This document shows, one piece after another, positions 1-10,477 of a stretch of DNA of 64,000 nt. Positions within the stretch are counted from its first letter, which is position 1, and each line of letters starts with the position of its first letter. The notes below the pieces were generated by a model. That model did not search any database. It was not told the origin of the DNA and saw only the letters and a program-made list of their open reading frames with translations. The position numbers were made by a program, and so were the translations under genes. Source of the DNA: Sphingopyxis jiangsuensis (GTDB taxonomy: Bacteria > Pseudomonadota > Alphaproteobacteria > Sphingomonadales > Sphingomonadaceae); assembly GCF_016734905.1 (NCBI RefSeq), contig NZ_JAERPO010000001.1, positions 806,001 to 870,000 on the forward strand. The letters are read 5' to 3'.

Positions 1-173
1 GTCGTGACAAGAAAGCCAAAGCGCGCGCCCTGCGGCGCGTCGGCGAGCGCGCTTTCGACGGCCGCCTGGACAGGCGACCGCTCGGCCGTCGCGCACGGCT
101 GTTCGGCGAGCGCCTGCGCCGGGACTGCGGCGAAGAGGAGCAGCGCCGCGAACATGTGCCGAGCTTGTGTCAT
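1..173 (-). CDS. Exported D-alanyl-D-alanine carboxypeptidase/endopeptidase-like protein (partial)
   Basis: Only the first 57 codons are present; the gene runs off the left edge. It begins at ATG 173-171 with an N-terminal signal peptide (hydrophobic core MFAALLLFAAVPAQALA), so the product is exported. The segment that follows (ALADAPQGARFGFLVT) resembles the start of PBP4-type (family S13) D-Ala-D-Ala peptidases, but no catalytic motif is visible, so this is a tentative call. The start lies 2 nt after the stop of the upstream serine hydrolase, whose last codons supply a GAGGAG ribosome-binding site. It is therefore translationally linked to the D-amino-acid/murein operon, and a murein peptidase fits that context. 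Confidence 0.5.
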   Translation of the reverse strand, partial: MTQARHMFAALLLFAAVPAQALAEQPCATAERSPVQAAVESALADAPQGARFGFLVT

Positions 174-175
174 TA

Positions 176-1201
176 TTACTCCTCTCGTGCGTCCCACGCG
201 GCGATCACCGCATCGCCAGTTGCCGGGCGCAGCTCGAAAATGCCGCTGTCGGCGTGGCGTGTCGGATGGACGCGGTTGGTCAGCAGGGTCCAGGCGATGC
301 CGCGGTCGAAATCGATCCACAGCCCCGTTCCGGTGAAGCCGGTGTGGCCGATCGTTGCGGCCGAGCAGGCGGTGCCGCCCGACCAGCCCGGAAAGGCGCG
401 TTCCCATCCACAGGTGCGATGGCCTTCCTGCGCGCTTCGCACCTCGTCCAGCATCGCCGCCGACAGGATCGACCCGTCGAGCATCGCGCGCGCAAAGCCG
501 AGCACGCCGTCGACCGTTCCGAACAGTCCGGCATGACCGGGGGCGCCGCCGAGCGCGAAGGCATTTTCGTCATGCACCTCGCCCTTGAGCACGCGCCCGC
601 GCCAGCTGCACATCTCGGTCGCGACGGCGGGGCCAGGGGGCGGGCCGAAACTGAGGCCCTCACCGAGCGGCCAGTCGGCGAGCGAGGCGCCCGTCAGCCG
701 CTCGATCGCAATGCCGAGCAGGATGAAATTGATGTCCGAATAGACGGGTGGTCCGTGACGCCACTCGCGCTGAAGGACGAAGGCGCGGAGCCGCGCGGGG
801 TCGTCGCCATAGGTATAGATCGGCTCGACCGCAGGGAAAAAGGTGCGATGGACCAGACAGTCGCGGAAAGTCAGCCGCCGTTCGGCAGCGCCCGCGACGT
901 CATATTGGCGCAGGTCAGGTATTGCGTCGGTGAGCGGGCGGTCGAGGTCGATGCGCCCCGCTTCGGCGAGTTTGAGGATCATCGTCGTGGTCGCAACGAC
1001 CTTGCTGACCGACGCGAGGTCGAACCAGTGCGCGCGCGTCAGCACCTCGGGCTCGGGGACGAGCGACGCCATACCGGCAAGCTCGATCGCGCTTGCCCCG
1101 TCGCGCGCCACGAGCCCCAGCGCCGCGCCGGGAATACGCCCGCTTTCAACCGCAGCGCGTGCGGGTGCGAACGCCTCGCGGCAGGCAGACTCGATACTCA
1201 T
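176..1201 (-). CDS. Beta-lactamase-fold serine hydrolase (class C/PBP-like)
   Basis: Protein of 341 residues with the layout of the beta-lactamase/transpeptidase-like superfamily. The SxxK nucleophile motif is SVSK at 64-67, in the typical FDLASVSK context. The second motif reads YSD (in YSDINF) where many members have YxN, and HTG near the C-terminus stands for the KTG motif. No signal peptide is obvious, so a cytoplasmic esterase or D-aminopeptidase-like role is as likely as a beta-lactamase. ATG 1201 overlaps the permease stop by 4 nt and its own stop abuts the next start, so it lies inside a polycistronic unit. Substrate is inferred only from its neighbours: D-amino-acid or murein-derived peptides. 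Confidence 0.85.
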   Translation of the reverse strand: MSIESACREAFAPARAAVESGRIPGAALGLVARDGASAIELAGMASLVPEPEVLTRAHWFDLASVSKVVATTTMILKLAEAGRIDLDRPLTDAIPDLRQYDVAGAAERRLTFRDCLVHRTFFPAVEPIYTYGDDPARLRAFVLQREWRHGPPVYSDINFILLGIAIERLTGASLADWPLGEGLSFGPPPGPAVATEMCSWRGRVLKGEVHDENAFALGGAPGHAGLFGTVDGVLGFARAMLDGSILSAAMLDEVRSAQEGHRTCGWERAFPGWSGGTACSAATIGHTGFTGTGLWIDFDRGIAWTLLTNRVHPTRHADSGIFELRPATGDAVIAAWDAREE

Positions 1202-2724
1202 TCCGCGACGCGCCCCTTGGCGCGCGCGACGAGCGGCAACAGGAAGATCGCGGCAAAGCTCAGCGCGCCGGAAAGCAGGAAAAATCCGTCATAGCCGATC
1301 TGCGTCTGCATCGACCCCGACGCGCCCGCGAGCAGTCGCGGCAAGAGGAAGGCGAAGCCCGACAGAAAGGCATATTGCGCTCCGGCAAAGCGCGGGCTCA
1401 CCAGCATCGAGAGATAGACGACGAAGACCGCCCCGGCGAAGCCGTTGCCGAACTGGTCGACCGCGACCGAGGTGTAGAGCACGAAAGACGAGGGTTCGGT
1501 GTGCGCGAGCCAGACATAGATCCAGTTGCCGAGCGCCGCAGCGACTGCGCCGAGCATGAGCGTCCAAGGCAGCGGCAGCCGCATCGTCAGCCATCCCCCG
1601 AGCGCCACGCCGAACATGCTCGACGACAGCGCGACGACGCCGTCGGCGACGCCGATCTGTTCGAGGCTGTAGCCCATGTCGTTCCACAGCGGATGCGACA
1701 GCGTCAGCGCGAGCACGTCACCCATGCGATAGAGCGAGACGAAAGCCAGCACTGCAAGCACGGCATAACCATAGCGCCAGAAAATCTCGACATAGGGGGC
1801 GACGAAGGCGTGCATCCTCTGCGGCGCGTCGGGAGGCAACCGCCGGATACGCGGCAGCGCGGCGGCGAGGAGGATGAAGGGCAACAGCGCGACCGCCAGC
1901 ACAAAAGGCGTGACGTTGGTCTTCGCCGAAACGCCCGCCCCCTGCACCGCAGACAGCAGCACCCATCCCACCGCCGTCGTCGCAATCGCAGTCACGAACA
2001 GGATGGCGAGGCTGACCATGACCCCCAGCAACAGCGCGCTCCAGCGCCCTTTCGCCCCCTCGGCTTCGGGGCGCATCGCCGCCAGCACGGGGAAAGGCGC
2101 GAACGCCGCGACCGCAATTACCAGATAGGCCCAGGTCCAGTCGGCCCACGCCGCGACGAGCACCGCGCCGCTGCCCGCCGCGACCATCGCGCTGCGATAG
2201 CCCCAGAGGTTCGCTGCGACGAGCGGGCCCTGCTCGGCCTGCGTCGGAGCGAGCTCGATACGCCAGCCGTCGGCAGCTACTTCGAGCGTCGTGGTCCAGA
2301 AGGCGAGCAGGATCGCAAAAAGAGCGGTGAGCGGCAGGCTTTCGTCGTTCGACGTCGCCGCCATCGCGACCATCGACAGGAAAATGCCGAGCTGCGACAG
2401 CATGATCCAGCTCCGCCGCCGTCCCCAGAACCGCCCGAACCCAGGGATGCTGAAGCGTTCGACGAGCGGCGCCCAGGCGAATTTAAAGGTTGGAAGCAGC
2501 GCAATCCATGCGAAAAAACCGATGATGACGATGTCGACGCCGTGCCGCGACAGCCGCAGCGTCAGCACCGCATTGAACATGTAAAAGGGCAGGCCCGCCG
2601 AAAAGCCGAGCAGCAAGTAGAGGCCGAGCAGCCGCCACCGCTTGACCTGCGGCGCGCCCTGGTCGTCGCCGGGCAGCGGCGCGTCGGCCAATGCCGCGCT
2701 CCCGTCGGCTGTCGCCACGCTCAT
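1198..2724 (-). CDS. AmpG-like MFS permease
   Basis: A 508-residue polytopic protein of the major facilitator superfamily. The N-terminal half carries AmpG-type features: GLYLLLGFSAGLPFYM at the first transmembrane helix, then RRRSWIMLSQLG and a TTLEVAADGWRIE stretch. AmpG permeases import anhydro-muropeptides released during cell-wall turnover. A short hydrophilic N-terminal tail of about 28 residues precedes the first membrane segment. It overlaps the upstream symporter gene and the downstream hydrolase gene by 4 nt each. Sphingomonads often carry several AmpG paralogues, so the exact solute is uncertain, but its placement between a glutamate-type symporter and PBP-like hydrolases favours murein fragments. 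Confidence 0.8.
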   Translation of the reverse strand: MSVATADGSAALADAPLPGDDQGAPQVKRWRLLGLYLLLGFSAGLPFYMFNAVLTLRLSRHGVDIVIIGFFAWIALLPTFKFAWAPLVERFSIPGFGRFWGRRRSWIMLSQLGIFLSMVAMAATSNDESLPLTALFAILLAFWTTTLEVAADGWRIELAPTQAEQGPLVAANLWGYRSAMVAAGSGAVLVAAWADWTWAYLVIAVAAFAPFPVLAAMRPEAEGAKGRWSALLLGVMVSLAILFVTAIATTAVGWVLLSAVQGAGVSAKTNVTPFVLAVALLPFILLAAALPRIRRLPPDAPQRMHAFVAPYVEIFWRYGYAVLAVLAFVSLYRMGDVLALTLSHPLWNDMGYSLEQIGVADGVVALSSSMFGVALGGWLTMRLPLPWTLMLGAVAAALGNWIYVWLAHTEPSSFVLYTSVAVDQFGNGFAGAVFVVYLSMLVSPRFAGAQYAFLSGFAFLLPRLLAGASGSMQTQIGYDGFFLLSGALSFAAIFLLPLVARAKGRVAE

Positions 2725-3959
2725 GCCAGAGCCTCCTGCGTGACATTGCCTTCCTTGCGCCCGACCACGCTCGTCACGGTCAGATTGGCGCTCGCGCTTG
2801 CCACCGTGCGCGTCATGTCGAGCAGTCGGTCGAAGGGCAGGATGAAGCCGACGACGAGCGCGGTCTGTTCGGGCGACACGCCGACCGCGCCGAGCGCAGC
2901 GGCAAGCATGAAGAGCGAGGCCGAGGGGATGGGCGCGGTCCCGAAAGCCGCGAGCGCGCCGGTGAGCAGCAGGATCGCGAGCATCGGCGCGTCGGGCGTA
3001 ATGCCGAGCGCCTGGAGCGCGAAGATGCTGAGAAGGCCGACATACATCGCCGTCCCGTCCTTGCCGATGCTCGCGCCGATCGGCAGCACCGTCGATGCAA
3101 CACCCGGCGCGATCCGCAGCTCTTCATGCGCGATGCGCAATGCGACGGGAAGCGTCGCCGCCGACGAGGCGGTCGAAAAGGCGACGACGAGCGCGTCGAG
3201 GATGGTGCGGTAAAAGCGCGCGACCGAGCGCCGTGCGACGAGCGCGATCAGCGGCACATGGACGAGCAGGATCTGCAGCACGACGCCCGTCGCTACCGCA
3301 ACCGCGAGCCAGCCGACATTGGTGAAGACTGCGACGCCATTGTCGGCCACCGCCTTTGCGATCAGCGCGAGCACCCCGAAGGGGGTGAACTCCATCACGA
3401 TGCGCACCAGGTGGAAAAGCACCTGCCCCACCGACTGAAGCAGCGCCGCGGTCGGTTTCCCCGCTTCGCCCGCCAGAATCACCCCGAAACCGAACAGCAT
3501 CGAGAAAAAGATGATCGCGAGCATGTCCCCGTCGACGAGCGCCTGGACGATGTTGACCGGAACGATGCCGACAAGCTGATCGTGGAGCGACTTCGCCTCG
3601 CCCAGCGCGTGCGGCGTTGCGCTGCCAAGCGCCGCCCCCGCGCCGGGTTCGATGAGCAGCCCGACCGCCATGCCGATCGACACTGCGCAGGCGGTCGTCG
3701 CCGCGAACAGGCCGATCGTGCGGGCGCCGACCGCCCCCAGCTTGTGCGGATCGGCGAGTGCGGTCACCCCCGATGCGATGCTGATGAAAACGATCGGGAC
3801 GACAAGCATCCGGATCAGGCGCACGAACAATTCGCCGATCACTGCGATCGCGGCGCTCGCTTCCGGTGAGGCGAGCCCGACCAGCAGGCCGAGAAGCATG
3901 CCACCGACCACCCTTTGCCATAATGGAACCGCGAACCAGCGGCGAAGGAATGCGGTCAT
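2721..3959 (-). CDS. Dicarboxylate/amino acid:cation symporter (DAACS family)
   Basis: A 412-residue inner-membrane transporter of the GltP/DctA family, which takes up glutamate, aspartate or C4-dicarboxylates with sodium or protons. Family features include the serine/threonine-rich reentrant segment (AFSTASSAATLPVAL), the GASIGKDGTAMYVGL stretch and the substrate-binding C-terminal helix (GFILPFDRLLDMTRT). Length matches the family. It lies 22 nt downstream of the epimerase gene and overlaps the AmpG-like gene by 4 nt. In this operon D-glutamate or another acidic D-amino acid is a plausible substrate (inference). Confidence 0.88.
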   Translation of the reverse strand: MTAFLRRWFAVPLWQRVVGGMLLGLLVGLASPEASAAIAVIGELFVRLIRMLVVPIVFISIASGVTALADPHKLGAVGARTIGLFAATTACAVSIGMAVGLLIEPGAGAALGSATPHALGEAKSLHDQLVGIVPVNIVQALVDGDMLAIIFFSMLFGFGVILAGEAGKPTAALLQSVGQVLFHLVRIVMEFTPFGVLALIAKAVADNGVAVFTNVGWLAVAVATGVVLQILLVHVPLIALVARRSVARFYRTILDALVVAFSTASSAATLPVALRIAHEELRIAPGVASTVLPIGASIGKDGTAMYVGLLSIFALQALGITPDAPMLAILLLTGALAAFGTAPIPSASLFMLAAALGAVGVSPEQTALVVGFILPFDRLLDMTRTVASASANLTVTSVVGRKEGNVTQEALA

Positions 3960-3981
3960 CGGCAGTCAGGCTCCGCTCATA

Positions 3982-4959
3982 TCAAAAATCGCCCCAGAAT
4001 CCGGCTTGGGGAGGCGCGAGAAGCCCCTTTGTGCCCCTGACGCCTCCCTCGCGATCCTTGGCGAGCCACAAGGGTCCGTCAAGATCGACGAAGTCGGCCC
4101 GTTCGGCAATCGTCCACGCCGGGGCGATCGACAGCGACGAGCTGATCATGCAGCCCGTCATCACGCCGAGCCCGCGCGCCCGCGCTGCTTCGGCGAGCGC
4201 CAGCGCCGCGGTGCGGCCGCCGGTCTTGTCGAGCTTGATATTGACTACCGAATAGCCGTCGGGAAGCGTCTCGAGATCCTCGGCGACGTGGATCGATTCA
4301 TCGGCGGCGATGGGGATCGCCGAGCGATAGCCCGCCAGATCGCCATCGGCATCGGCAGGCAGAGGCTGTTCGAGCAGGTCGACGCGCAGATCGGTCATCA
4401 GCCCCTGTAGCGCATCGACGTCGGCGATGGTCCAGCTTTCGTTGGGATCGACGATCAGACGCGGACCAGGGGCGGCCTTGCGCACGGCACGCAGCGCCTC
4501 CGCCGGATTTTCGCGGTCGACCTTGACCTTGACCAGCGGCGCATCAGCCAACAGGGTCGCGGCCTCCGCCATGCGTTCGGGCGTGTCGAGGCTGACGGTC
4601 ATCGCGGTTGCCACCGGGCGGGCCCGCGCAGCCGCACGGCCCTGCCGAAGTTCGAGGTCCCACAGGGCGCAATCGACGGCATTGCGTGCCGCTCCGGCCG
4701 GCAGCAAGGACAGCAGCTCGCGCCGCGTTACCCCGCGCTCGATTTCCTCGCGTATCGATTCGATGGTAGCGGTGGTGCTCGAAAGGCTCTCGCCATAGCG
4801 GGCGTATGGCACGCATTCGCCGCGACCGACGACGCCATTGCGAAGGATGACGACGCTCAGCACCTCCGCGATCGTCTTCACCCCGCGCGAAATGCGAAAC
4901 GGGGCGTTGAGCGGGAAACAGTCGGTCCGTACGGCCAACGCGGCAGATATGGTGGCCAT
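3982..4959 (-). CDS. Enolase-superfamily epimerase: N-acetyl-D-Glu racemase (DgcA) or L-Ala-D/L-Glu epimerase
   Basis: Protein of 325 residues from the muconate-lactonizing subgroup of the enolase superfamily. The KxK catalytic pair is at about 144/146 (VKVKVD), the metal ligands are Asp171 (DPNESW), Glu197 (EQPL) and Asp220 (ADES), and the opposite-face lysine lies in NIKLDKTGG (about 242-245). Relatives racemise the Glu of L-Ala-D-Glu in murein-peptide recycling, or racemise N-acetyl-D-glutamate as DgcA. ATG 4959 is chosen because the domain starts there and overlaps the upstream stop as TGATG; the longer open frame to 5085 lies inside that gene. Direct coupling to the DUF1611 gene favours DgcA, while the AmpG-like neighbour favours dipeptide epimerase. 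Confidence 0.88.
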   Translation of the reverse strand: MATISAALAVRTDCFPLNAPFRISRGVKTIAEVLSVVILRNGVVGRGECVPYARYGESLSSTTATIESIREEIERGVTRRELLSLLPAGAARNAVDCALWDLELRQGRAAARARPVATAMTVSLDTPERMAEAATLLADAPLVKVKVDRENPAEALRAVRKAAPGPRLIVDPNESWTIADVDALQGLMTDLRVDLLEQPLPADADGDLAGYRSAIPIAADESIHVAEDLETLPDGYSVVNIKLDKTGGRTAALALAEAARARGLGVMTGCMISSSLSIAPAWTIAERADFVDLDGPLWLAKDREGGVRGTKGLLAPPQAGFWGDF

Positions 4960-5993
4960 CAGGCGGGTTGCGCAATCGTCGAGGGGATCCCGGTCGCGGC
5001 AAGCAAGCGATCGAGGATCGGTTCCACTCCCATGCGATAGGGATCGGTACAGGGAAGGCCGAATTTCTCTTCGGTGCGGGCGCAAAGCTCATACGCCTCC
5101 GCTTCGGGGAGCGCCGACGTGTTGAGCGCGATCCCGACCGCCTGAACGGCGGCGTTGGTAAGCCGCGCCACTTGCAGATTGGCTTCGAGACATTCGTCGA
5201 GTGCGGGTAGCTGATAGTGCGGGAGGCCGCGCATGTGCGGGCGCGTGGGATCGTGGCAGAGCACAAGCGCGTCGGGCTGCGCGCCGTGCAGCAGCCCCGT
5301 CGACACCCCGGCGAACGACGGGTGGAACAGCGAGCCTTGTCCTTCGATCAGGTCCCAGCCACCGTCGGTGCGCGGCGGCGAAAGCTGTTCGATCGCGCCC
5401 GAGATGAAATCGGCGACAACCGCATCGAGCGGTACGCCCGAGCCCGCGATGAGAATGCCCGTCTGGCCGGTCGCGCGAAAATCGGCGGCGATACCGCGCT
5501 TTTCGAGCGCGCGTGCGAGGCACAGCGTTGTGTACATCTTGCCCACCGAGCAGTCGGTTCCGACGGTGAGCAACCGCTTGCCTTCGCGCGGAAGGCCGTT
5601 GCCGATCGGAATGTCGGGGCGCGGCTTGCGCACGTCGTGAAGCTGACGGCCCAGGCGCGCCGCCGCTTCGACCAGCCGTGGCTCGTCGTTGAGCCGATGG
5701 TGAAGCCCCGAGGCGATATCGAGGCCTGATTCAAGCGCGGCAAGGGCGTCCTCGATCAGGTCCGCGCCCAGCTTGCCCCCGGCATTCGCAATCCCGAGCA
5801 CGAGCGTTCTGGCGCCCGCCGCACGCGCCATCGCGAAATCCATGCGCGGAAGGTCGAGCGTCAGTCCGCAGTCATCGTGGCGAAACTCGCCGACGCAAAT
5901 GTCGGGGCGGAATACCGCCAGTCCGCGGGCGGTCTTGATCCCGACATTGTCGTTCGAATGGCCGAGATAGAGAAGATAGGGGGTGGCGATCAT
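4959..5993 (-). CDS. DUF1611 P-loop protein, DgcN-type D-glutamate N-acetyltransferase candidate
   Basis: Protein of 344 residues matching DUF1611, often mislabelled NAD-dependent epimerase/dehydratase. A P-loop (GTDCSVGKM, 145-153) opens the C-terminal ATPase-like domain, and EGQGSLFHPSF near 230 is a conserved block. In marine Proteobacteria a member, DgcN, has been reported to N-acetylate D-glutamate, and its partner DgcA racemises the product. Here the DgcA-like gene follows with a 1-nt stop/start overlap, the same pairing. It is the first gene of the leftward operon, 94 nt downstream of a LysR gene. Family assignment is strong; the D-Glu activity is inferred from the pairing. Confidence 0.83.
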   Translation of the reverse strand: MIATPYLLYLGHSNDNVGIKTARGLAVFRPDICVGEFRHDDCGLTLDLPRMDFAMARAAGARTLVLGIANAGGKLGADLIEDALAALESGLDIASGLHHRLNDEPRLVEAAARLGRQLHDVRKPRPDIPIGNGLPREGKRLLTVGTDCSVGKMYTTLCLARALEKRGIAADFRATGQTGILIAGSGVPLDAVVADFISGAIEQLSPPRTDGGWDLIEGQGSLFHPSFAGVSTGLLHGAQPDALVLCHDPTRPHMRGLPHYQLPALDECLEANLQVARLTNAAVQAVGIALNTSALPEAEAYELCARTEEKFGLPCTDPYRMGVEPILDRLLAATGIPSTIAQPA

Positions 5994-6074
5994 GCTGTTC
6001 GATACCTGCGTGGCTTGGAATGCGAACGTCTATCGCCGCCGCACGCCGGCCCCCAATATCTTGCGCCGCGCTTC

Positions 6075-6093
6075 CTATAGCCTTGCGCTATAG
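6075..6093. promoter_or_regulatory. Twin CTATAG palindromes upstream of the DUF1611 gene
   Basis: Two identical self-complementary hexamers CTATAG (6075-6080 and 6088-6093) sit 13 nt apart start to start, separated by CCTTGCG. They straddle the LysR stop codon and lie about 80-115 nt upstream of the next start, a usual distance for an activator site or promoter element. This could be a LysR operator for the operon, or chance. The spacing is slightly longer than one helical turn. Confidence 0.3.
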
Positions 6094-6972
6094 TTCCTCG
6101 ATCACCTGCGAGAGCATCTGGAGAAATTCGGCGGCGGTCTTCGACGGCGGCCAGTCCTGCAGATAGACGGCGTTGATGTCGAACGCGATGGCGGGCTGGA
6201 GCGGGCGGCTCGCGAGCCCCGGTGGCAGCGCCGCGTGCGCGGTGAAATTGTCGACGATCGCCATGCCGACCCCGGCATGGACGAGCGCCGCCGCGACATA
6301 ATAGGTCCGCGCCGACACCACTTCGTTGAGCGTCACCTCGAGCCGGTCGAGCTCGCCCGACAGCATCCGGCCGATCGGCCCGCTCTGCACCGGGCTGATG
6401 AACTTGTGCCCGCGCAGTTCATCGAGCCGGATGCGCGGGGGCGCAGCGGGCAGATCCTGTTCGCGAAAGATCACGACCAGCTCGCCTTCGCCGATCACCT
6501 GGTGCGCGACGGGCGCCGCGAGCGGCACTTCATAGCTGATCGCTATGTCGGTTTCGCGCTCATAGAGTTTGCGCACCATTTCGTCGTGATGGACGGTCTG
6601 CAGGTCGAACATCACATCGGCATGGCCGGTCATGAAGCGCGCCACAGCCTCCGGGATCGCGCCGAGCCCCAGCGACGGCAGCGCCGAGATGCGCAACAGG
6701 CCACCGCGGCCGTGGCGCAAATTCTGGCATGCCTGCCGCAGCGAGCGGACGCGATCCTGAATATCGGAAACCTCGGCGAACAGGATGCGCGCGTCCTGCG
6801 TGGGGATGAGCCGCCCCTTCGAGCGTTCGAACAGCGGAAGGCCGATCGAACGTTCGGCGTGGCGGAGTACCTTGGTGACAGAGGGCTGCGATACGTTGAG
6901 CGCCCGCGCCGCGGCGCTGACCGTTCCGTGCAGGAACACGGCATGAAAAACCTCGATCTGGCGCAGATTCAT
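6088..6972 (-). CDS. LysR-family transcriptional regulator (possible DgcR)
   Basis: Protein of 294 residues. The N-terminal winged helix-turn-helix runs from MNLRQIEVFHAVF through SAAARALNVSQPSVTK, followed by the LysR effector-binding domain. ATG 6972 is chosen because the domain begins there; the open frame continues upstream to 7260 but that part resembles no protein. It lies on the same strand as, and 94 nt before, the DUF1611 gene and is divergent from the deacylase gene, so it could control both. A LysR regulator accompanies dgcN-dgcA in described examples, which supports a D-amino-acid-responsive activator (inference). Confidence 0.88.
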   Translation of the reverse strand: MNLRQIEVFHAVFLHGTVSAAARALNVSQPSVTKVLRHAERSIGLPLFERSKGRLIPTQDARILFAEVSDIQDRVRSLRQACQNLRHGRGGLLRISALPSLGLGAIPEAVARFMTGHADVMFDLQTVHHDEMVRKLYERETDIAISYEVPLAAPVAHQVIGEGELVVIFREQDLPAAPPRIRLDELRGHKFISPVQSGPIGRMLSGELDRLEVTLNEVVSARTYYVAAALVHAGVGMAIVDNFTAHAALPPGLASRPLQPAIAFDINAVYLQDWPPSKTAAEFLQMLSQVIEEL

Positions 6973-7036
6973 GAGTTTTGTCTCCCGACGGCCAGCACGG
7001 GATGTCCGCCCGCTGATGCGGGGACTTTGTGGCGAC

Positions 7037-7065
7037 TTGGGCTCTCTATGCCAGCGGGTTATAGG
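7037..7065 (+). promoter_or_regulatory. Candidate sigma-70-type promoter for the deacylase gene
   Basis: TTGGGC (7037-7042) and TATAGG (7060-7065) are 17 bp apart in the divergent gap between the LysR gene and the N-acyl-D-amino-acid deacylase gene, about 100 nt before the latter's ATG. The match to consensus is partial and no transcript data exist. Confidence 0.4.
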
Positions 7066-7168
7066 TGGCGCAACAACCCTCTCTGGACGCAGAGCGGCGC
7101 TTTGCCGACAAGTTCGTCCCGAATGACGGGCCGCCGCGCGCCTCCCGGTGCGGAGCCTGCAGCCTAGG

Positions 7169-8824
7169 ATGTCGCCGATGCCCCTGCCTTCCGCCTTGTC
7201 ATCGTTTCGTCGCACCGCCGCGCTCGGCGCGATGGCGATCATGCTGTCCGCCTGCGCCACCAGCGCCCCGACCTCCGCCGAAGTCGACCTGCTGATCCGC
7301 GGCGGGACGATCTATGACGGCAGCGACCGCGCCCCTTTCATTGGCGACGTCGCCATTCGCGGCGACACCATCGTCGAGGTCGGCGACTTGCGCCGCCTGT
7401 CCGCAGCGCGCGTCGTCGATGCCCAGGACATGATCGTCGCGCCGGGGTTTATCGACCCGCACACGCACGCCGACGGCTTCCTGCGCTCGTCCGACCCGGC
7501 GCAGCGCGTCAACCCGGCATGGCTCAACCAGGCAGTGACGACGGTCGTCATCGGCGTCGACGGGTCGGGCACCCCCGATGTCGCGAGCGACGCGCGCCGG
7601 ATCGAAGCCTCGGGCGTGGGCACCAATTTCGTCTCGCTGATCGGCTTTGGCGCGGTGCGCCAGCGTGTCCTCGGCCAGGCGGCGCGCGCGCCCGAACCCG
7701 CCGAACTCGCCGCGATGCAAAAGCTTGTCGCGCGCGGCATGTGCGAAGGCGCAGCGGGCTTTTCGGCCGGCCTTTTCTATGCGCCCCAAAGCTTTGCAAC
7801 GACCGACGAGGTCGTCGCAGTTGCGCGCGAAGCGGCCGTGCGCGGCGGGCTTTACGATACGCACCAGCGCGACGAATCGAGCTATACCATCGGCCTTCTC
7901 GGATCGGTGCGCGAAGCGATCGCCATCGGCCGTGCCGCCGGCATGCCCGTCCATTTTGCGCATCTGAAGGCGCTGGGGGTCGACGTCCACGGACAGGCAG
8001 GCGCCGTGATCGCCGAAATCGACGCGGCGCGCCGTGCCGGGATGCAGGTGACCGCCGATCAGTATCCGTGGCTCGCTTCGGGGTCGAGCCTCGACGCGTC
8101 GCTGCTGCCGCGCTGGGCGGTCGACGGCGGCGCGCCCGCGCTCCTCGCCCGCCTCGACGACACCGCAACGCACGCGCGAATCCGCGACGAAATGGCGGAT
8201 AATCTGCGGCGGCGGGGTGGCGCGGCGTCGCTGCTGCTGATCGCGCAGGGCTTTCCCTGGACGGGACAGACGCTCGCCGCGGTCGCCGAAGGCTGGGGGC
8301 TCGACCCCCGCGACGCCGCGCTGCGCATCATCCGCCACAGCCTTGAGGCTGCCGACGAAAAGCAAAGGGGGCGCGGCACAGCGGTCGCCTCGTTCAACAT
8401 GGCGCAGGCCGACGTCGACCTGTTGATGCAGCAGCCGTGGATGGTCACCTCGTCTGACGGCTCTGACGGCCACCCGCGCATGTACGCAAGCTTTCCGGAA
8501 AAGTATCTGCGCTATGTGCGGGACCGCAAGGTGGTGAGTCTCGCCGCCTTCATCCGCCAGTCGACGGGCCGCACGGCCGACATCTATCGCCTCGACCGGC
8601 GGGGTTATCTGCGGCCCGGCTTTTTCGCCGATGTCGCGGTGATCGACCCCGACGGATTCGCGCCGCGCGCCGACTATATGAACCCGCGCGAACTCAGCGT
8701 CGGGGTGCGCAAATTGTACGTCAACGGCACTCTTGCAGTCGATGACAGCCGCGCCACGGGTGCCACTGCCGGCCGGGCGCTGCTGCGTCCCGTCCCCGCG
8801 ACGGGCTGCCCGGTAGTGGACTGA
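7169..8824 (+). CDS. N-acyl-D-amino-acid deacylase (D-aminoacylase), predicted lipoprotein
   Basis: Metal-dependent amidohydrolase of about 551 residues that removes acyl groups from N-acyl-D-amino acids. The HxH metal motif is in GFIDPHTHADG. Further family blocks are YDTHQRDES, HFAHLKALG and SDGSDGHPRMYASFPE near the C-terminus. The N-terminus has a lipoprotein signal ending in the lipobox LSAC, so the enzyme is probably anchored in the periplasm. ATG 7169 is preferred over GTG 7148; ATG 7178 is also possible. It is divergent from the LysR gene and the D-Glu/murein operon, which suggests it feeds free D-amino acids to that pathway or releases them from acylated forms. Confidence 0.85.
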   Translation: MSPMPLPSALSSFRRTAALGAMAIMLSACATSAPTSAEVDLLIRGGTIYDGSDRAPFIGDVAIRGDTIVEVGDLRRLSAARVVDAQDMIVAPGFIDPHTHADGFLRSSDPAQRVNPAWLNQAVTTVVIGVDGSGTPDVASDARRIEASGVGTNFVSLIGFGAVRQRVLGQAARAPEPAELAAMQKLVARGMCEGAAGFSAGLFYAPQSFATTDEVVAVAREAAVRGGLYDTHQRDESSYTIGLLGSVREAIAIGRAAGMPVHFAHLKALGVDVHGQAGAVIAEIDAARRAGMQVTADQYPWLASGSSLDASLLPRWAVDGGAPALLARLDDTATHARIRDEMADNLRRRGGAASLLLIAQGFPWTGQTLAAVAEGWGLDPRDAALRIIRHSLEAADEKQRGRGTAVASFNMAQADVDLLMQQPWMVTSSDGSDGHPRMYASFPEKYLRYVRDRKVVSLAAFIRQSTGRTADIYRLDRRGYLRPGFFADVAVIDPDGFAPRADYMNPRELSVGVRKLYVNGTLAVDDSRATGATAGRALLRPVPATGCPVVD

Positions 8825-9221: not shown

Positions 9222-10112
9222 TCAGCCACAGTCGATATGTCCTGTGGAGACCGCGACGCAATCGCCGCGCAACGTCGCCCTGATGCCGTCGTTCGCGCGC
9301 CGTGCTGTGACGTGGAGAAGGCTCGGCCGCCCCATTTCGACGCCTTGATGGATTTCGAAACGGCGTTCGTCGGCGTCCGGTTCGAGCGACAGGAGGAGGC
9401 AGGCGAGCGGTGCATTGGCGCTGCCCGTGGCGGGGTCCTCCCAGGTTCCCGCCAGCGGCGCAAACATCCGCGCGCGCAGCGTCTGGCCGTCGCGGCAATA
9501 GACATGCGCCGACAGCCGCGTCCCGAACTGCGGATAGCGCGCCAATGTTTCGCGAAACACCGCGAGATCGGGGTCGCAACGCGCAAGCGCCCCGTCGCGC
9601 AGTTCGGCGATGATATAGGGATTACCCACCGATGCGAGGATCGGTAAGTGCGCGTCGGTCCGAACATCGTCGGGCCGGAGCCGTAGCATTTGCGCCACCG
9701 TTTCCGGCGGTAACGCTTCCCCTATGCTGAGCGGCTGCGGCGCTTCGACGGTAGCGCCCCGGACGACGCGGTCCGCATCCCGCTCGATCTCTACCGCCAC
9801 CGTGCCGGCCAGAACCTCGAACGTCGCGACGTCGAGTTGTGGATCGGCGGATGCGAGCACGAACGCGGTGCCCACCATCGGATGGCCGGCAAATGCCATT
9901 TCCTCGGTACGGTTGAAAATGCGAACGCGCGCGGTGTGCGCCGGGTCGGCAGGCGGAAGGACGAAGACGGTCTCGCTCAAATTGAACTCGGCCGCGACCT
10001 TTTGCATTACCGCGTCCGGAACATCTGCGCCGCCCAGCACAACCGCTAGCGGATTGCCGCCGAAGCGTTCCTGCGTGAACACGTCGACCGTCGAAAAGGG
10101 TAAAACAGGCAT
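9222..10112 (-). CDS. PhzF-family isomerase/epimerase
   Basis: Protein of 296 residues of the PhzF family (diaminopimelate-epimerase-like fold). The start reads PFSTVDVFTQERFGGNPLAVV, with the catalytic glutamate in NLSETVFVL and the conserved EMAFAGHPMVGTA block. Most family members have unknown substrates; phenazine synthesis is not implied because no other phz genes are here. ATG 10112 is preferred over TTG 10127 since GAGGA lies 8-9 nt upstream of it. It is divergent from an ArsR regulator, probably its repressor. Confidence 0.9.
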   Translation of the reverse strand: MPVLPFSTVDVFTQERFGGNPLAVVLGGADVPDAVMQKVAAEFNLSETVFVLPPADPAHTARVRIFNRTEEMAFAGHPMVGTAFVLASADPQLDVATFEVLAGTVAVEIERDADRVVRGATVEAPQPLSIGEALPPETVAQMLRLRPDDVRTDAHLPILASVGNPYIIAELRDGALARCDPDLAVFRETLARYPQFGTRLSAHVYCRDGQTLRARMFAPLAGTWEDPATGSANAPLACLLLSLEPDADERRFEIHQGVEMGRPSLLHVTARRANDGIRATLRGDCVAVSTGHIDCG

Positions 10113-10142
10113 CGTGCAATTCCTCAATCGTGCAAGCTTCGA

Positions 10143-10176
10143 TTGACACTTATTTCGTTTATTGGCAAATTGGCAA
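10143..10176. promoter_or_regulatory. Shared control region of phzF-like and arsR-like genes: TTGACA and tandem ATTGGCAA
   Basis: In the 65-nt divergent gap the sequence shows TTGACA at 10143-10148 and two abutting identical octamers ATTGGCAA at 10161-10168 and 10169-10176, ending 1 nt before the regulator ATG. The repeat is a good candidate ArsR-type operator. A -10 box at normal spacing would place transcription start near 10178, so the regulator message may be leaderless. No Shine-Dalgarno is visible before that ATG. Confidence 0.45.
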
Positions 10177-10177
10177 T

Positions 10178-10477
10178 ATGTCGAATGCAGAAATTTTTCG
10201 GGCGCTCGCCAACGAACGGCGCCTTCAGATCCTGAGCTGGCTGCGCGACCCGACCGCGCACTTCCCCCCGCAGCGCGACGGCGACCTGATCGAGGATGGC
10301 GTATGCGGCCAATCGATCGCAGAAAAGCTGGAGATCAACGCCTCGACGCTCAGCGAACATATGCGCGTGTTGCAGGCGAGCGAACTGGTGATCGCCAAAC
10401 GCATCAAGCAATGGACATTCTATCGCCGCAACGAAGCGCGGCTTGCCACGCTCGCTGCCGAGATCGGCGCCATCTAG
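10178..10477 (+). CDS. ArsR-family transcriptional regulator
   Basis: Protein of 99 residues with a winged helix-turn-helix of the ArsR/SmtB type: AEIFRALANERRLQILSWL, then GQSIAEKLEINASTLSEHM and a wing ending in KQWTFYRRNE. The conserved metal-binding ELCVC motif of metal sensors is absent, so it probably answers another signal. ATG 10178 fits the domain start; the frame is open 16 codons further upstream into the intergenic region. It is divergent from the PhzF-like gene and followed by a broken VOC gene that probably once shared its transcript. Confidence 0.85.
   Translation: MSNAEIFRALANERRLQILSWLRDPTAHFPPQRDGDLIEDGVCGQSIAEKLEINASTLSEHMRVLQASELVIAKRIKQWTFYRRNEARLATLAAEIGAI

Follow-up and report, generated by a model that had tools for sequence, protein, structure and literature searches.

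A putative peptidoglycan-fragment catabolic locus in Sphingopyxis jiangsuensis, with D-glutamate genes beside a second AmpG-family permease and a serine hydrolase

The DgcN-DgcA pathway of D-glutamate (D-Glu) breakdown was reportedly described, together with an adjacent regulator, by Yu et al. in ISME J in 2023. The accessible text of a further paper gives the pathway a role in Shewanella WP2 (PMC10845958). Both genes are found in a stretch of 64,000 nucleotides of the 3.13-Mb genome of Sphingopyxis jiangsuensis, hereafter the window (C1:806001-870000, C1 being contig NZ_JAERPO010000001.1), at the head of a leftward run of six genes, dgcN-dgcA-DAACS-ampG2-serH-dacB. As in the described pathway, dgcN and dgcA are both present and over their curated cut-offs; the locus differs in adding a second AmpG, the serine hydrolase SerH, DacB, a deacylase, a penicillin acylase and, outside the window, a sugar arm for N-acetylmuramic acid (MurNAc) and N-acetylglucosamine (GlcNAc). 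On balance it is probable that an accessory locus of ~22 kb (C1:792.6-814.8 kb) serves the catabolism of peptidoglycan fragments, its right-hand part lying in the window.

Wall fragments are handled by gene clusters in several other bacteria. In the peptidoglycan-scavenging cluster of Tannerella forsythia, as here, an AmpG-family permease, a BcrAD/BadFG-type kinase and MurQ are found together; that organism belongs to another phylum, its MurNAc feeds the wall synthesis of an auxotroph, and the accessible parts of the papers describe no genes for D-Glu N-acetylation (PMC7670621, PMC5790795, PMC10465942). Bacillus subtilis ykfABCD, beside dppB-E, and Escherichia coli YcjG/MpaA likewise serve murein-peptide catabolism and include an L-Ala-D-Glu epimerase homologous to DgcA, but they have a dipeptide ATP-binding cassette (ABC) transporter and the endopeptidase YkfC or MpaA, and the available portion of the source describes no DgcN, AmpG2 or SerH (PMC2954226). 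The B. subtilis cluster murQ-murR-murP-amiE-nagZ-ybbC unites MurQ with a MurNAc-L-Ala amidase and NagZ, a proposed analogue of SerH with MurQ; according to the sections available, its amidase is extracellular, import is through a phosphotransferase system and there is no D-Glu arm (PMC5061867). Recycling in Caulobacter (AmpG, AmiR, NagZ, AnmK), where LdcA and Mpl are missing, shares AmpG import, an amidase and NagZ, but it concerns anhydro-muropeptides of the cell's own wall, and the accessible text describes no second AmpG or D-Glu arm (PMC13046382). The parts of the present locus are of known kinds, and their combination, judged from sequence and a limited literature, appears to be new. No description of dgc genes with AmpG2, SerH and a sugar arm was found in the literature searched, a weak negative, subscription papers being mostly out of reach.

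The following working is proposed. A TonB receptor and hydrolases that are periplasmic or lipoproteins (DacB, a penicillin-acylase-type amidase and an N-acyl-D-amino-acid deacylase) would import and trim wall fragments, AmpG2 would move muropeptides over the inner membrane, and SerH, in the cytosol, would cut the stem peptide off MurNAc. The sugar arm (NagK-like kinase, MurQ, NagA and NagB-II) would then convert MurNAc to fructose-6-P and D-lactate. D-Glu, imported by the DAACS symporter or released from the stem peptide, would be acetylated by DgcN; DgcA would racemise the product and a deacetylase would yield L-Glu. The LysR protein would govern the peptide-side genes through a palindromic operator. 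A fuller version, which we put forward tentatively, as possible rather than probable, is a sphingomonad system for foreign peptidoglycan. In it an AmpG2 lineage would be specialised for fragments ending in plain MurNAc (muramidase-type, non-anhydro), SerH would be a new MurNAc-L-Ala amidase, serine-type and cytosolic, and DgcN/DgcA, MurQ and the Nag enzymes would burn both halves of the muropeptide, with the peptide side under one LysR operator.

The D-Glu and MurNAc of dead bacteria form a large, slowly used pool of organic matter. If the proposal is correct, bacteria use whole wall fragments as a food source by way of one conserved locus that combines the uptake of muropeptides with the breakdown of MurNAc and, through N-acetylation, of D-Glu. 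AmpG2 would then represent a new clade of permeases and SerH a family of cytosolic hydrolases that recurs beside anmK and murQ in other alphaproteobacteria, and the operator would offer a direct way to find out which signals the cell responds to.

Gene neighbourhood and co-occurrence

An earlier note on this DNA had described an island of six overlapping leftward genes, joined to a LysR gene and an opposed N-acyl-D-amino-acid deacylase lipoprotein. Its gene calls all stand by reading frames and family models. The six genes do run leftward and are tightly packed, and may be co-transcribed; true overlap is confined to three of the five junctions within the run, with a short gap at the other two (from lysR through dgcN, dgcA, DAACS, ampG2 and serH to dacB the gaps are +94, -4, +22, -4, -4 and +2 bp). 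The LysR-type gene (6088..6975, minus strand; start ATG 6975, with a longer reading frame from 7260) matches its family models. The deacylase-like amidohydrolase (7148..8824, plus strand) has an Amidohydro_3 match and, on inspection, the lipobox LSAC; its PDB matches are, in order, D-aminoacylase, an amidohydrolase, the carbohydrate deacetylase OngB and N-acyl-D-glutamate deacylase. The sixth gene, which the note called exported and D-Ala peptidase-like, begins in the window (dacB, 1..173, minus strand) and runs past its left edge. Read from the genome (C1:804689-806173, 494 aa), it is a complete DacB/PBP4, a PBP4-type D-Ala-D-Ala carboxypeptidase/endopeptidase with a Sec-type leader, matching Pfam Peptidase_S13 and scoring 201.8 with TIGR00666 (cut-off 107.8).

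The D-Glu function ascribed to dgcN-dgcA in the same note is well supported as a prediction from family models. DgcN (4959..5993, minus strand), of the D-Glu N-acetyltransferase family (DUF1611), passes its curated NCBIfam cut-off (NF041892, 522 against 480). DgcA (3982..4962, minus strand), an enolase-superfamily protein of the N-acetyl-D-Glu racemase/dipeptide-epimerase type whose gene adjoins dgcN with a 4-bp overlap, also passes (NF042940, 416.7 against 400); with PRK15129 it scores 308.7, below the cut-off of 343. Since alignments show that DgcA retains conserved stretches of the dipeptide epimerase YcjG, L-Ala-D-Glu might be used directly, bypassing DgcN. The DAACS symporter (2721..3959, minus strand) is of the glutamate/aspartate type (Pfam SDF, 323 against 27.9), with aspartate/glutamate transporters as its closest PDB relatives. 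It carries the sequence DMTRT at what we take to be the place of the motif that binds acidic substrates. A non-homologous glutamate symporter, GltS, is found in 12 of 80 dgcN loci, each without a close DAACS, which supports glutamate as one of the compounds imported.

The distribution of these genes was followed across the family in 79 genomes with a completeness of 95% or more, roughly one to a genus and chosen independently of the island. Of these, 18 have dgcN (E<=0.001; 12 over the DgcN cut-off), 10 have serH and nine have island-type ampG2. serH and dgcN occur together in nine of the 79 (p=2e-6, a value that, like the other given below, treats genomes as independent when they share ancestry), and eight of the 12 genomes over the DgcN cut-off have serH. 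The two genes lie 3.8-18.3 kb apart in eight of the nine shared genomes. In the ninth, G075, serH (L105, C4) stands beside dgcA, deacylase, DAACS and dacB genes with no dgcN match, and the only dgcN (49% identity) is on another contig (L106, C1). serH and ampG2 share eight of the 79 genomes and are adjacent in all eight, with gaps of -1 to 41 bp. Exceptions are G077, with serH and neither dgcN nor ampG2, and G080, with ampG2 and neither dgcN nor serH.

Among the 80 dgcN loci, 25 have serH at >50% identity; 21 of these also have ampG2, adjacent in 21/21. The arrangement in the 25 is co-directional as in the window in eight (some with losses), convergent in 16 and divergent in one. Exact gene order was therefore dropped as a test of conservation. 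That genes have been re-ordered with their proximity kept argues for a functional tie. Conservation, for which the earlier note proposed a check of the whole gene order in sphingomonads, is thus borne out for the set across genera of the family, but the exact order varies, and co-conservation of the set was not seen beyond sphingomonads in the 80 dgcN loci.

The conserved neighbourhood extends ~13 kb to the left of the window. Left of dacB is a convergent penicillin acylase gene (C1:802276-804666, plus strand), and beyond it are genes for a TonB receptor, MurQ, a GntR/UTRA regulator, an oxidase linked to flavin adenine dinucleotide (FAD), NagB-II, NagA and a NagK-like kinase. MurQ, 7.4 kb from serH, passes two models (PRK05441, 334 against 168; PRK12570, 271 against 255) but not a third (TIGR00274, 257 against 302). 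NagB-II scores 330, below its cut-off of 430, NagA shares 56% identity with a copy over the TIGR00221 cut-off, and among the PDB relatives of the NagK-like kinase are one kinase for GlcNAc and one for MurNAc/GlcNAc. The FAD-linked oxidase best matches GlcD, below its cut-off; it adjoins murQ (L002:1786-3183, plus strand), and the same pairing is seen in L036. MurQ releases D-lactate, which a GlcD-like oxidase encoded beside murQ might oxidise.

SerH and AmpG2

serH (176..1201, minus strand) encodes a beta-lactamase-fold serine hydrolase without an export signal, matching Pfam Beta-lactamase. The motifs S64xxK67, Y154SD156 and H286TG288, which are catalytic, are invariant in 38/38 aligned sequences, and the structure model (predicted local distance difference test score, pLDDT, 94.2) has the fold of DD-peptidase/beta-lactamase-type hydrolases. 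An order-wide sample, set aside as too broad in favour of that of the family, has serH in five of 60 genomes, all of the Sphingomonadaceae. In a search across the class, 16 of 289 genomes have it: two of this family, 11 outside it (52-64% identity, six families) and three distant matches at 34-38% (G255, G141, G403), which are excluded from the counts that follow. The 11 non-family loci have anmK, for anhydro-MurNAc kinase, within the examined stretch in 10 (adjoining in nine), murQ in five, nagA in three, a NagK-like kinase in three, and a binding protein with a dipeptide-type ABC permease in four. This company is why SerH is taken to hydrolyse muropeptides in the cytosol; its most likely activity, on the analogy of B. 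subtilis AmiE (presumably a member of the beta-lactamase family as well), is that of a MurNAc-L-Ala amidase. Ten of these loci (L142-L149, L151, L152), in which serH and anmK are accompanied in part by murQ, nagA and the dipeptide-type ABC transporter, look in their own right like an undescribed MurNAc recycling cluster with a serine hydrolase.

It is possible, if doubtful, that SerH instead works on the stem peptide in the cytosol, as a D,D- or L,D-carboxypeptidase or some other peptidase, the wall-fragment reading being otherwise kept. Its best NCBIfam model is PBP4B (PRK03642), named for a penicillin-binding protein, though at 80.4 it is far below the cut-off of 385, and the Foldseek matches include the R61 DD-peptidase and D-amino-acid amidases, besides esterases. 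Against a peptidase are the neighbours of SerH elsewhere, AnmK and MurQ, which act on MurNAc once the peptide has been removed, and the S66 LdcA that the genome already has. In the accessible text on B. subtilis, moreover, the amidase gene amiE (ybbE) is located in the murQ cluster (PMC5061867).

In the proposed working, AmpG2 (1198..2724, minus strand) would supply SerH with muropeptides. It is an AmpG-family permease of a clade separate from canonical AmpG, scoring 327 bits with TIGR00901 against a cut-off of 350. All nine island-type copies in 26 genomes score 315-333, and each of the 26 also has another copy over the cut-off; these genomes, used for the AmpG, Amidase_2, LdcA, AnmK and MurQ counts, were hand-picked from the order-wide and family samples as island genomes and contrasts and are not a random sample. 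In a tree of 20 AmpG2 and 20 canonical AmpG sequences the groups split at 100/100; 35 positions have one fixed residue common to both groups, and at 12 each group has a different one. The sole solved relatives of AmpG2 at E<=0.001 are AmpG structures. It is thus a divergent AmpG paralogue, with muropeptides as the putative cargo mainly because of the steady pairing with serH. The AmpG of T. forsythia, clustered with MurT, MurK and MurQ, takes GlcNAc-MurNAc and its anhydro form according to the part of the source available, and such a range is therefore conceivable for AmpG2 (PMC7670621).

Two roles were rejected. SerH is not a stand-in for a missing AmpD, for an AmpD-type amidase is present elsewhere in the genome, and the island is not the sole source of AmpG, AmpD-type amidase or LdcA, all three families having a copy elsewhere.

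The operator and the sugar arm

Of 40 loci with lysR nearby, 39 have a palindrome of the form ATAGC-N5-GCTAT 64-136 bp before dgcN, with at least 8 of 12 consensus letters matched. A weight matrix was trained on the dgcN-promoter sites alone, with a threshold of 10.5, exceeded by 1% of 3,000 random windows, so that only genes other than dgcN are independent of the training; a shared divergent promoter is counted for both genes. Sites above threshold precede the penicillin acylase gene nearly throughout (22/23 loci; L002:8125-8139), TonB receptor in 11/17, ampG in 5/15, NagK in 2/5, lysR in 8/40, NacylDAA in 7/29, DAACS in 3/34, dacB in 2/24 and serH in 1/23. In the three loci with an operator before DAACS (L012, L014, L052) this gene follows lysR instead of dgcA. 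None was found above threshold before dgcA (0/39), BLA2 (0/6), M19 (0/2) or GGT (0/1).

In the S. jiangsuensis genome the operator marks dgcN (6076..6092, in the lysR-dgcN gap, score 23.1) and the penicillin acylase gene (18.8), and an operator-like site in the lysR/deacylase gap (7049..7063, plus strand) scores 10.1-10.2, just below threshold. The pattern was drawn from alignments that include the window, and the chance estimate made with it is for this reason not independent; two of its three matches are the two strands of one palindrome. By position, the LysR protein is the likely binder of this operator.

murQ is over the cut-off in seven of the 26 genomes, five of the eight with the island as against two of 18 others (p=0.014), and in those five it lies 1.5-8.3 kb from serH. 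The flanks of the 80 dgcN loci end 10 kb from dgcN, and sugar-arm counts in them are lower bounds. In one murQ-bearing genome without the island, G122, murQ is 13.5 kb from dgcN. Here a canonical second AmpG stands beside lysA, nagA, nagB, nagK, murQ and dacB, ~20 kb from dgcN and without ampG2 or serH (L155/L156, G122:C2:600001-638000); this is possibly an independent recruitment of AmpG.

Several findings count against a peptidoglycan-fragment locus. murQ is missing from three of the eight island genomes, including the congener G035. There is no operator before MurQ (0/4 promoters), and the sugar arm may thus stand as an independent unit; having its own GntR gene, it is probably regulated apart. 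AnmK (PF03702), present in six of the 26 genomes, was found neither in the S. jiangsuensis genome nor in any of the eight with the island, so the sugars of anhydro-muropeptides would not be used. Having MurQ and no AnmK, the genome may be geared to plain MurNAc of foreign wall and not to products of the cell's own turnover. Outside the island the genome has a canonical AmpG, an Amidase_2 protein (AmpD-type), the S66 LdcA and NagZ, families with 26/26, 25/26, 20/26 and 16/16 occurrence in the genomes tested, which means that the island is unneeded for ordinary recycling and that AmpG2 may carry something else. The modelled fold of SerH fails to separate an amidase from a peptidase or esterase. 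Non-sphingomonad loci among the 80 have dgcN and usually dgcA, with no serH or ampG2 at >50% identity. Finally, three enzymes are absent or have no assigned gene, namely one to cut gamma-D-Glu-diaminopimelate (DAP), a dipeptidase and the deacetylase that would act last, on N-acetyl-L-Glu. With these steps wanting, the full route from wall fragments to L-Glu foreseen in the earlier note is not borne out. Its link to muropeptides fares better, with serH relatives beside anmK and murQ in other families and with the murQ, nagK-like, nagA and nagB-II genes that lie close to the island here; it is weakened by AmpG2 being a divergent second copy, with canonical AmpG elsewhere.

Much of this would also fit the scavenging of free or N-acylated D-amino acids of the environment, D-Glu foremost, and of D-peptides, with AmpG2 and SerH serving these substrates and the mur/nag genes a separate neighbour. 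DgcN/DgcA, the deacylase, the penicillin acylase and DAACS are all compatible with N-acyl-D-amino acids, and such a function would account for an operator on dgcN and penicillin acylase with none on MurQ, for an AmpG2 below the AmpG cut-off in a clade of its own, and for the island genomes that lack MurQ. We regard it as unlikely, since relatives of serH elsewhere are grouped with anmK, murQ and nagA, and serH adjoins ampG2 wherever both occur. That the genes are neighbours by chance or pure inheritance, with no functional link, is very improbable: the genomes share ancestry and the exact six-gene order is seen only in Sphingopyxis-type loci, but proximity is kept in at least three arrangements, the sample holds roughly a single genome for each genus, and the same operator is found again ahead of separately transcribed genes.

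Flanking genes and other dgcN loci

Directly beyond the island in the window is a gene for a PhzF-family isomerase (9222-10127, minus strand), divergent from that of a small ArsR-type regulator (10130-10477, plus strand). The nearest named DgcN loci are mostly from Sphingopyxis. One labelled Arthrobacter (L060, QDFQ01000001.1) is sphingomonad-like, with 67% identity and the same neighbours, and probably comes from a mislabelled genome.

Gammaproteobacterial dgc loci keep a varied company of gamma-glutamyltransferase (GGT), class IV D-amino-acid transaminase, D-aminopeptidase-like hydrolases and the DAP decarboxylase LysA. LysA at >45% identity occurs in six of the 80 dgcN loci, five of these gammaproteobacterial (L040, L041, L050, L061, L072); the five combine dgc genes with LysA and D-aminopeptidase-like hydrolases, and four of them have GGT too. 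Enzymes for DAP, D-Glu and D-Ala found together point to wall peptide, and these loci may represent a second design of wall-peptide catabolic cluster.

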